Of a stretch of DNA of 64,000 nt, positions 32,462 to 44,361 are shown piece by piece. Both the position numbers and the translations under genes were made by a program. Where the stretch lies: the NCBI GenBank assembly GCA_015059545.1, contig SVAG01000005.1, positions 1 through 64,000 of the forward strand, read 5' to 3'. Below the pieces are notes generated by a model. That model made no database searches. It was not told the DNA's origin and was given only the letters and a program-made list of their open reading frames with translations. Numbering within the stretch: the first letter of the stretch is position 1; every line of letters begins with the position of its first letter. Origin of the DNA: Lactobacillales bacterium (GTDB taxonomy: Bacteria; Bacillota_I; Bacilli_A; RF39; UBA660).

Positions 32462-32483
32462 AAAAGTAGATTACTCTACTTTT
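32462..32483 (-). terminator. terminator of the acidic membrane protein gene
   Basis: AAAAGTAGA and TCTACTTTT form a 9-bp stem with a 4-base loop and T-run on the minus strand, at the stop codon of the upstream gene. Confidence 0.8.
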
Positions 32484-34132
32484 TAATATTCATTTACTAA
32501 ACTACTTGTTGCATTTGTTGAAGTTGTTGAACTTGCATATTGACTAATTTTTGTTATAAATGATACAAGTGTTTCATTTTTCATTAAATTTGTTTTAATT
32601 GTATTCAAATCTGTTTCAGTTAATGAATCAGCTTTAACACTATTTGTTACATTTGGTAAACTTAATTTATCTTTAAATTCAGCTTTTGAATTTCCACTTA
32701 CTGTTACTTCAATCATTCCCATTAAACTTACTGATGCTGATATTTTAGCTTCATATGAACCATCTTTGTTTTCTTTTATCATTTCAACTACTACATCTCC
32801 ACTTATTGAAGCACCACCAGCAGTTAAAGTATAATTATAAGTTGTTTTTTTACCTTTTTCTTTTTTAAGAACTTCTAATTTAACAGTATCTTCATCACTA
32901 GTTGCTTCTAATACAAATTTAGTATCTGATATTGTTGCACTCATTAATTCTTCATCATCTGCAACTACTTTAAATTCATCTTTTGATTTACCTTTGTAAT
33001 ATGAAATAATTCCAGTTTCTTCATCTTCATCTTCGATAACTAATTCATATCCTACAGCATCTGCTTTAAATCCTTTTGTATAAACTACAAATGATAAAAC
33101 ATCTTCTGTTTCTAAATCACCAGATTCAATTTCTTCAGTTAATTCATCTATTGTTTCTTCCATTGATTCTTTGATTTCATCTTTATCTGTTCCTGATAAA
33201 GTAGCTAATGCTTCAATATATTTTGAATCTTTAACTAATTGACTAAATGCTTTTTTAGCTAATTTTTTTGCTTTTGTTTCTGATAAAGCATATGTAACTT
33301 TTGTTGTTTTTACATTTTTACCATCTACTTTAATAGTAGCTTTTGATTTTTTAAAATTATCTTCATCTAAATTATTTATAAATGCATCTTTTGTTTTAGA
33401 TAAAACATATTTAACATCATCTACATCAACTGTAGTTTGTTCAAAATATGAATTATAATCTTCCATTGGAACTTCAATATATTTATCGAATAAATCTTTT
33501 AATTCAAAATACATTTTTTCATTTTTAGCATATGCACCTGCATTAACTAATGATTTATTATCATATAATGCTCCAACAACCATTAACATTTGTTTATTTT
33601 TTTGATCATACCCTATTTCAGTTTCTAATTTAATTTTATTAATTTCTTCAATAAGACCTTTTGTATTAGAATCTAATAAACTATCATCAACTTTAATATT
33701 TAGTTTTAAGTCATTAGATAATACCATTGGTTTATTTACTTCTGTTTTAAATCTATCATCAATATATTTTTCTACTTCTTTATAGCTTTTATTTATTGAA
33801 TTAACAAACATTTTCTTAGGATTAGATAAGTTTGTATAAGCAAAATATAAGATTGCAGCTAATGCAACTATAATTATTGCAATTACTATAAATGGTCCTT
33901 TATTTCCTTTCTTTTTAGTTGGGATAAACTCATATCCGTCTGTTTCATTTGAAACAGGTTGTGTTGTTACTTCTTCAGTAACAACTTCTTCTACAGGTGT
34001 TTCAGTAACATCTGCAGTTTCTACTTCTTGTACTACTTCTTCTACAACTTCTTCAGTTGCTTGTGATGCAGTAACTTCTTCTGTTACAGTTTCTTCAACT
34101 GCTTCTGAATTGTTTAATTCATCTTTATTCAT
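32483..34132 (-). CDS. single-pass membrane protein with acidic cytoplasmic tail, unknown
   Basis: The start is placed at MNKDELNNSE, preceded by AGGAGTG. The ~549-residue protein begins with about 75 residues very rich in Glu, Val and Thr in repeats of the EEVVEEVVQEVET kind. A basic KKKGNKGPF stop and one membrane helix (about 84-104) follow. The remaining 440 residues are predicted outside and resemble repeated beta-rich lipoprotein-like folds, with YDNKSLVNAGAYAKNEKMYFELKDLF and YKGKSKDEF segments. No catalytic motif is visible and I do not recognise the family. It lies directly downstream of oapA but has its own promoter at 34153-34180. Confidence 0.6.
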   Translation of the reverse strand: MNKDELNNSEAVEETVTEEVTASQATEEVVEEVVQEVETADVTETPVEEVVTEEVTTQPVSNETDGYEFIPTKKKGNKGPFIVIAIIIVALAAILYFAYTNLSNPKKMFVNSINKSYKEVEKYIDDRFKTEVNKPMVLSNDLKLNIKVDDSLLDSNTKGLIEEINKIKLETEIGYDQKNKQMLMVVGALYDNKSLVNAGAYAKNEKMYFELKDLFDKYIEVPMEDYNSYFEQTTVDVDDVKYVLSKTKDAFINNLDEDNFKKSKATIKVDGKNVKTTKVTYALSETKAKKLAKKAFSQLVKDSKYIEALATLSGTDKDEIKESMEETIDELTEEIESGDLETEDVLSFVVYTKGFKADAVGYELVIEDEDEETGIISYYKGKSKDEFKVVADDEELMSATISDTKFVLEATSDEDTVKLEVLKKEKGKKTTYNYTLTAGGASISGDVVVEMIKENKDGSYEAKISASVSLMGMIEVTVSGNSKAEFKDKLSLPNVTNSVKADSLTETDLNTIKTNLMKNETLVSFITKISQYASSTTSTNATSSLVNEY

Positions 34133-34152
34133 TTTCACCACTCCTAACAATA

Positions 34153-34203: not shown

Positions 34204-34797
34204 TTATTTAACCTTATAAAATAAATTTATAAACTTTGAAAATTTATATAAAATTATATTTGCCTTATTAATAGCAAAACTTTTACATATTGCTTTTGCT
34301 CCTATAGTAATTGAAGCTATTGTAGCTGTTACAAATAAAGAAATATATAAATTATCAACATTAATTACATTAGATAAAGAATCAGCTATAATGACACCTA
34401 TTGATCCTGATATAACTCCACATATATCACCAAATACGTCATTACAAAAAGATGACACTTTATCAGCATTTTTCTTTAATTTTACTGCTACTTTAGCACA
34501 TTCAACTTTTCTTGAGGCCATCGAATGAAATGGTACTTCATCAGAAGCAGTTACAGCAACTCCAACCATATCAAATATAACACCTAATGTAATGACTGCT
34601 ATAAGAATAATTACTCCAAAAACTAAATTTACATTTGGAATTAGTGTTTCAGATATAATTGCAAATGTTAAAGCTACTATAAATGCTATTAATACAATTT
34701 TGATTATCCAAAACTTATCTATTTTTTCTTTATGTTTTAATTCTTTTCTTCTTGTTTGAATTTTTAAATTTAATAATTCTAATTTTCCTTTTCTCAA
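34204..34797 (-). CDS. oapA: OLE-associated membrane protein OapA
   Basis: OapA is the membrane protein that binds OLE RNA and brings the ribonucleoprotein to the inner membrane; it has been linked with magnesium homeostasis. The gene starts 13 bases downstream of the OLE U-run. I choose the TTG start (MRKGKLEL) because AGGTGAT lies 5-6 bases before it; an in-frame GTG three codons upstream overlaps that site. The ~197-residue protein has helices near 28-50, 55-80, 125-148 and 150-170. A conserved-looking block lies between the helix pairs: DMVGVAVTASDEVPFHSMASRKVECA, then KNADKVSSFCNDVFGDICGVISG. This block also recalls the membrane domain of CNNM/DUF21 magnesium transporters. The identification rests on length, topology and the RNA next to it. 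Confidence 0.82.
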   Translation of the reverse strand: MRKGKLELLNLKIQTRRKELKHKEKIDKFWIIKIVLIAFIVALTFAIISETLIPNVNLVFGVIILIAVITLGVIFDMVGVAVTASDEVPFHSMASRKVECAKVAVKLKKNADKVSSFCNDVFGDICGVISGSIGVIIADSLSNVINVDNLYISLFVTATIASITIGAKAICKSFAINKANIILYKFSKFINLFYKVK

Positions 34798-34810
34798 TTT
34801 AATCACCTAA

Positions 34811-35402
34811 AAAAAAATATGATGGCATTCAGATTGGTAAACTTTGCGCCTTAGGTCAAGTAGAATTTCTCTAGTTTCTACAGCCCGTTACCAGACTTGC
34901 GGTTCCCCTTTAAAGAAACTAATATACCGTTTCCAAATATATGACTTGATTGCCACTTAGTACGCACCGCAATCCCAATCTAAAATACACTCTAGAAGAT
35001 TTCCTCACCATCTATTTACTATTAATTCTCTTTTGCAAGCATAGTTTCAAAGTGCAATAATTATGTATCTTTTGGCCAAAGATAAAAATCTGATCACTAA
35101 TCCCCCATACTCACTCAAGACAAGCTACGCTACTCGTAAGTTTCCCCACATAGTAGGTTTAATCCTAAGTCGTCACAAGTCCGTCAACGGTTGCATTTGT
35201 GTATAGGCTCATAACAAGTTTAGGTCTCCACGGATACTGGGTCAATGACGTATGCCATTACGGTTGCCCAATACCCTACCTTCCAGCACTCACCCCAAAC
35301 TGGGCGTAAGAAGCAAGCACCAAAAGTTTCATCGATGTGCTCTTTAGTGGATTTTTAGCCCCACCTTCATAGTAAATTTAATGACTAGAATAATGTGCCA
35401 TC
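34811..35402 (-). ncRNA. ole: OLE RNA (ornate, large, extremophilic)
   Basis: A ~590-base stretch with no reading frame has clearly higher G+C than the surrounding genes. It begins 7 bases after a -10 box and ends in a run of nine T residues. Its two ends pair: GATGGCA at 35402-35396 with TGCCATC at 34827-34821 (minus strand), so the whole RNA is closed by a terminal helix. It has many short purine-rich internal segments (for example GGGGAACCGCAAG, GCGGTGCGTACTAAG, CCGTTGACGGACTTG). The size, the closed shape, the dedicated promoter and the OapA-like gene just downstream fit OLE RNA, an abundant membrane-associated RNA of some Bacilli and Clostridia. I did not align it to the Rfam model. tmRNA and RNase P were considered and do not fit. 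Confidence 0.85.
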
Positions 35403-35408
35403 TTCATA

Positions 35409-35437
35409 ATTATATCAAATTGTTTTTTAGATTTCAA
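35409..35437 (-). promoter_or_regulatory. OLE RNA promoter
   Basis: TTGAAA, 17 bases, TATAAT on the minus strand. The expected start point, about 7 bases past the -10, is the G of the 5' strand of the closing helix. Confidence 0.85.
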
Positions 35438-35453
35438 TTTATTATATGAAAAA

Positions 35454-35472
35454 AAGGACTAATTTAGTCCTT
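35454..35472 (-). terminator. rpoC terminator
   Basis: AAGGACTAA and TTAGTCCTT form a near-continuous palindrome at the rpoC stop codon, followed by a T-run on the minus strand. Confidence 0.8.
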
Positions 35473-43836: not shown

Positions 43837-44328
43837 TTAACCTTCTAAATTTTTACTATGTAAATCTAAGCAAATTGCAAAATCTTTTGGTATTGCAAGA
43901 AGTCCACTTGCAAACATTGTAAGTAATCCTTCTCTTGATGGGATTGAAGCAAGTTCTTTTAACATATTAATATCTGCTACTTCACCATCTACGATTCCTA
44001 CTTTTAATTCTAATGCTTTATGTTCTTTAGCAAAATCACTAAGAACTTTGATTGGTGCTACTGCATCTTTACCAAATGCGATAGCTTTTGGACCATTTAA
44101 ATTATCTCCTAAATCGATTTTTAAATTGTCTAGTGCTCTTTTAGCTAAAGTATTTTTGTATACTTTATAGTCAGAGTCTGTTTCTTTTAATTTTCTTCTT
44201 AATTCATTTGTTTCAGTAACTGTAAGTCCTCTGTATTCAAACCAAACTATTGAAGATGAATCTTTAATTTTAGATTCGATTTCAGAAACAACATTAGCTT
44301 TTGCTTCTATTATTTTTTGATTAGCCAC
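43837..44328 (-). CDS. rplJ: 50S ribosomal protein L10
   Basis: L10 anchors L7/L12 to the 23S rRNA. I place the start at a GTG codon (giving MANQKIIEAKANVV), because AGGAGGTG-like GGAGGTG lies 5 bases before it and the family begins there. An ATG ten codons upstream falls in the leader. The 163-residue protein shows SSIVWFEYRGLTVTETNELRRKL and YKVYKNTLAKRAL, with a C-terminal amphipathic region for the stalk. It has its own promoter (44476-44504) and an L10 leader. Confidence 0.97.
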   Translation of the reverse strand: MANQKIIEAKANVVSEIESKIKDSSSIVWFEYRGLTVTETNELRRKLKETDSDYKVYKNTLAKRALDNLKIDLGDNLNGPKAIAFGKDAVAPIKVLSDFAKEHKALELKVGIVDGEVADINMLKELASIPSREGLLTMFASGLLAIPKDFAICLDLHSKNLEG

Positions 44329-44361
44329 ATCTGCACCTCCATTCATATAAAGTACCATATA

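Follow-up and report, generated by a model that had tools for sequence, protein, structure and literature searches.

The 64,000-nucleotide stretch of contig SVAG01000005.1 analysed here (the window) carries, almost beyond doubt, a gene for OLE RNA followed by the gene for its obligate membrane-protein partner OapA. The best overall explanation, with a mechanism borrowed from Halalkalibacterium halodurans included, is very probably an OLE ribonucleoprotein locus. An Rfam covariance-model search matched RF01071 at 413.8 bits against a cut-off of 50 (E 3.9e-118), over the full model and with nearly all of its base pairs retained (Table 1). This is the sole OLE in its own genome (1.19 Mb in 11 contigs, 93.5% complete), and the same search gave no match in 14 control genomes. 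A different RNA class, or a protein gene that has broken down, was rejected as an alternative at 34806-35417, as OLE is the only match there and no open reading frame of at least 60 aa lies between 34806 and 35471. A preliminary description made from the sequence alone had proposed OLE RNA and then OapA; the model search bears out the RNA, while the protein aligns with OLE-adjacent proteins of the family and has a CNNM-like fold. The coordinates, U-run, 13-base spacing and protein length of about 197 residues given there were all correct.

Table 1. Features of the ole-oapA locus in the window, and mini OLE genes of related genomes (coordinates of the latter within the locus named)
Feature	Sequence	Coordinates	Strand	Details
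rpoC intrinsic terminator	window	35454..35472	-	AAGGACTAAATTAGTCCTT then TTTTT; parts ole from rpoBC transcription
ole promoter	window	35409..35437	-	sigma-70-like, TTGAAA-17-TATAAT, extended -10 (TG); 11/12 matches
OLE RNA gene	window	34806..35417	-	RF01071 positions 1-616; fold z -3.6
P1 terminal helix, 5' arm GAUGGCA	window	35396..35402	-	MFE fold; own-vs-swapped pairing
P3 long-range helix, 5' strand AUUUACUAU	window	35369..35377	-	MFE fold; own-vs-swapped pairing
P3 long-range helix, 3' strand AUAGUAAAU	window	35014..35022	-	MFE fold; own-vs-swapped pairing
P1 terminal helix, 3' arm UGCCAUC	window	34821..34827	-	MFE fold; own-vs-swapped pairing
U-run right after P1	window	34809..34817	-	
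Probable oapA ribosome-binding site	window	34803..34808	-	AGGTGA
oapA	window	34204..34797	-	197 aa, TTG start, four long helices, CNNM-like transmembrane domain
Mini OLE	G106, L207	501..878	+	intact OapA adjoining, 172 aa
Mini OLE	G035, L208	501..881	+	intact OapA adjoining, 172 aa
Mini OLE	G273, L228	1501..1878	-	intact OapA adjoining

Locus layout and RNA structure

The ole-oapA pair is inserted between rpoC and the rpsL-rpsG-fusA genes, and a same-genus ortholog (G030, L011) has it at the same place, behind rpoC. In Bacillus the position between rpoC and rpsL belongs to ybxF, which encodes OapC; the window's genus has ole-oapA there. A protein of 549/555 aa, with a single apparent membrane segment at its N terminus, is encoded between oapA and rpsL (32483-34150, minus strand) and has no Pfam or NCBIfam match over cut-off. 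Elsewhere in the window an L10 ribosomal leader (RF00557; 44349-44460, minus strand) ends near the start of a 173-aa open reading frame (43837-44358), which is what an L10 gene would be expected to show.

The ole promoter sits immediately past the terminator hairpin of rpoC, and the transcript probably has its 5' end near 35402. The promoter read in the preliminary description is real and its position is conserved: a strong sigma-70-like promoter stands directly upstream of 97 of 104 OLE genes of relatives, against 14 of 104 with shuffled upstream sequences. At the other end, the TTG start of oapA lies 13 bases past the U-run, behind its AGGTGA, and is confirmed by the same-genus ortholog, whose ATG start occupies this very codon. 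The window RNA reaches oapA without a separate terminator hairpin in between, and its U-run directly adjoins the ribosome-binding site of that gene, as might be the case if the RNA were a long structured 5' leader controlling oapA translation or transcription in cis, and not an independent OLE RNA. We consider such a leader very improbable, however, since a hairpin and T-run follow the RNA in 62 of 106 relatives; RNA and oapA are on different contigs in G003 and about 0.6-3 kb apart in G005, G036, G038, G051, G069 and G120; and a 616-position OLE match far exceeds known leaders in size.

The structure likewise points to OLE RNA. The unconstrained minimum-energy fold of the window copy has an energy z of -3.6 against 20 shuffles, and forms both P1, the closing helix that had been proposed from the two ends of the RNA, and P3, whose 9 bp (35377-35369 with 35022-35014) bracket the 5' domain. 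Arms from one and the same genome form more stable pairs than arms exchanged among genomes, at a mean of -9.4 versus -7.2 kcal/mol for P1 (90 related OLE genes) and -9.2 versus -5.2 kcal/mol for P3 (73 related OLE genes), with kinship uncorrected in both cases. By sequence comparison, the promoter, P1 and P3 are conserved or covarying over about 100 relatives. P1 is left unpaired in Rfam's own structure line; neither helix is new, because both are already named in the literature, which places P1 and P2 in domain 2 and describes P3/P3.1 as a 12-bp stem (PMC12265935). Helix names for Rfam positions were inferred from the text of that paper and of PMC12286853.

Judged by alignment, the window OLE also keeps the dimer-contact loops known from cryo-EM work (PMC12286853, PMC12265935): the A-rich CUAAAAAUC in P4, GCCCAG in P5, AUGGCAU in P6 and the palindromic UUGGCCAA in P9. 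The k-turn-forming J6/7 segment GUGGAGA, which belongs to the OapC site, and the P13 loop motif GGNNAC, an OapB element, are retained too, as they are in 52 and 79, respectively, of 79 full-length relatives by a crude motif count. Retention of the k-turn despite the absence of OapC fits the cryo-EM view that it forms without protein.

The OapA protein

The window OapA shares 45-79% identity and 19 invariant columns with OLE-adjacent proteins of family members, and its named relatives come from bins of uncultured Bacilli, Bacillales, Tenericutes or Erysipelotrichaceae, many from gut samples. It has the traits of the OapA family: four predicted transmembrane helices, a CNNM-like fold, a lysine/arginine-rich N-terminal region and a conserved core. 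The closest Pfam family is CNNM (PF01595), at 4.5e-5 and below the curated cut-off; 21 of 28 OapA relatives match it. A search of solved structures by sequence found no relative, while a fold search with the AlphaFold model (pLDDT 89.8, four long helices) did find CNNM structures. Residues 56-194 of the model superpose on the CNNM domain of MtCorB with Z 12.8 (2.3 Å over 132 residues), and CorC follows with Z 11.2, both well above unrelated rows. This predicted fold agrees with the published relation between OapA and MpfA (PMC11332333).

Similarity to CNNM, by sequence and by fold, might also be expected of an Mg2+ transporter of the MpfA/CorC type whose gene just happens to neighbour an RNA unrelated to it. 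We find this barely credible. MpfA and CorC combine the CNNM domain, whose transmembrane fold OapA is predicted to share, with a CBS pair and CorC_HlyC, whereas the 197-aa window protein has neither CBS nor CorC_HlyC and for this reason is OapA-like, not MpfA. The presence and absence of the protein moreover track those of OLE with few exceptions, its tree divides exactly along the forms of OLE, and CorC_HlyC is found in none of 145 genomes of the family.

Distribution and protein partners in the family

Those 145 genomes, all from the window's own family and nearly all of different genera, include 98 with OLE and 98 with OapA; 96 have both and 45 neither. OLE was found in 249 of 386 genomes in a larger draw and 119 of 193 in an order-level draw. 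Four genomes are discordant. Three of them (G018, G085 and G087) have their match at a contig end; a hidden divergent OLE in G085 and G087, where only OapA was found, is unsupported, as OapA stands at the contig end in both. The fourth, G034, has an intact full-length OLE (L167, 1577-2179, minus strand), yet its assembly, 93% complete, yielded no OapA; its congener G272 has both. In G025, a second, partial OLE lies at the end of contig C3 (L209, 956-1424, plus strand), beside a full-length OLE elsewhere in the genome, and its diverged 5' part suggests a paralog, decay or a contaminant.

The preliminary description had expected the locus to widen the range of OLE and to offer a compact variant in a Mollicutes-like genome. 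The range is not new, because OLE is common in the window's own family and was already reported from RF39 and TANB77, reduced-genome gut clades known from metagenomes only (Fernando and Breaker, 2024; PMC11332333). Nor is the copy compact: it is 612 nt long and covers all 616 model positions, and compact OLEs occur instead in relatives. The likeness to Mollicutes does not extend to the absence of a wall; penicillin-binding transpeptidase domains occur in all 145 family genomes, with four in the window genome, and since that genome encodes penicillin-binding proteins its organism is not wall-less. In GTDB terms the family probably corresponds to RF39. The window OLE is full length and belongs to a class that is known, also from this clade.

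OapB and OapC have been reported as largely missing in RF39 and TANB77 (PMC11332333); in outline, the missing partners were therefore as well known as the range. In our sample the OapC/YbxF family (L7Ae, PF01248) was found in 0 of 145 genomes, with a positive B. subtilis control. One general KOW profile, run on the 93% complete window genome, gave convincing matches only to frames of 108 and 179 aa, the size of uL24 and NusG, and we saw no OapB-like gene there. bS21 is present in 131 of the 145 genomes, the window genome included. CorC_HlyC, the MpfA hallmark domain, is also missing from the 45 genomes without OLE and OapA, and so the published anticorrelation of OLE with MpfA does not separate family members that have OLE from those that do not.

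The loss of both genes in those 45 genomes, together with the missing OapC and the apparently missing OapB, might suggest that the window RNA is a decaying, non-functional OLE remnant in a reduced genome. This is highly improbable given the high covariance-model score with nearly all pairs kept, the intact oapA, the maintenance of P1 and P3 by covariation, the conserved promoter, and the same-genus ortholog at the same place.

Size classes, co-inheritance and the proposed particle

Three forms of OLE coexist in the family: full-length (534-618 nt), short (470-519 nt) and mini (378-381 nt). As read from the alignment, the short OLE of G123 (L203) has lost P7, P8 and the distal P9 loop, and P9 is also shortened in most other short forms. 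The published variant 2 lacks P7 and P8 (PMC11332333); the window OLE has both, and so is not of this RF39 type. Its host resembles those of variant 2 in being an uncultured, reduced-genome, gut-type Bacilli-like organism without OapC; the difference is that the shortened form is found in the window's relatives, whereas the window copy is full length.

The three mini OLEs (Table 1) lack model positions 74 to about 277, and with them P5-P8, the k-turn, the bS21 site and the OapC site; domain 2 is retained whole, as are P1, P2, P3 and P4, and P9 is kept in shortened form, its loop carrying a different palindrome, UGAUCA. They are smaller than the published variants, and we found no description of this form in the open literature searched. 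They are one lineage: G035 and G106 have closely similar OapAs. Other candidates were discarded: G317 and G348 hold fragments cut by contig ends, and the low score of G346, where oapA is close to a contig end, is probably a contig-end effect. In G379 (L227, 1501-2022, plus strand) a truncated OLE runs straight into a truncated oapA, which may be a deletion across ole-oapA or a misassembly.

A tree of 102 OapA proteins divides the partners of full-length OLE from those of short and mini OLE by one change (SH-aLRT 97), with the mini-form OapAs as one group inside the short side. The OapA clade corresponds to the form of the RNA without exception, also in genera that have both forms: in g38 (G038, G174 and G251 full-length, G214 short) and in g89 (G089, G203 and G250 full-length, G189 short), OapA goes with RNA form irrespective of genus. 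These sequence comparisons suggest that ole and oapA were exchanged as a unit, or that two old versions were differentially lost. Linkage alone may have held the two genes together, though G003 has them on different contigs. The N-terminal tail of OapA has at most 8 residues in all 25 short or mini forms and a median of 26 in full-length forms; 10 of 76 full-length forms are also short-tailed, and we therefore reject a strict association of tail loss with the loss of P7/P8. Because the short forms are one OapA clade, the association amounts to one event and to no proven link.

The window OLE has in common with the OLE of H. halodurans and clostridia (RF01071) the whole secondary structure, the P1 closing helix, the dimer-contact loops, the k-turn segment, the P13 loop and an oapA immediately downstream. 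It differs from them in its lack of OapC and of any OapB seen, its place between rpoC and rpsL, its AT-richness and a 17-nt insertion in P7 relative to the Rfam consensus. By analogy with those systems, two OLE RNAs would dimerise and OapA, which is CNNM-like and related to Mg2+ transporters, would hold the dimer at the membrane; the particle may tune metal-ion and stress physiology. We favour, with some reserve, the view that this mechanism, borrowed from H. halodurans, would apply here. OapB and OapC are essential in H. halodurans. The particle of the window's family would work without OapC, and in the window genome apparently without OapB too; its putative working set would be OLE RNA and OapA, with ribosomal protein bS21 possibly joining.

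We lean slightly towards a more specific reading, in which OLE in this family has been stripped to RNA plus OapA, the k-turn and P13 serve RNA architecture instead of OapC and OapB, the 378-381-nt OLE is a natural minimal functional OLE, RNA and protein form a matched, exchangeable cassette, and losses of the pair occurred without gain of MpfA. To our knowledge, OLE is among the largest and best-conserved bacterial RNAs, with a biochemical function not known in any organism. The copy in the window contributes one further well-formed example from a clade where OLE was known; what is chiefly of interest is the graded series of deletions that has arisen naturally among its relatives. With forms of about 610, 490 and 380 nt in one family, each with its own OapA, this series makes it testable which parts of OLE are indispensable; and because the family sample lacks OapC and MpfA, the role of OLE and OapA is open to study with fewer partners.
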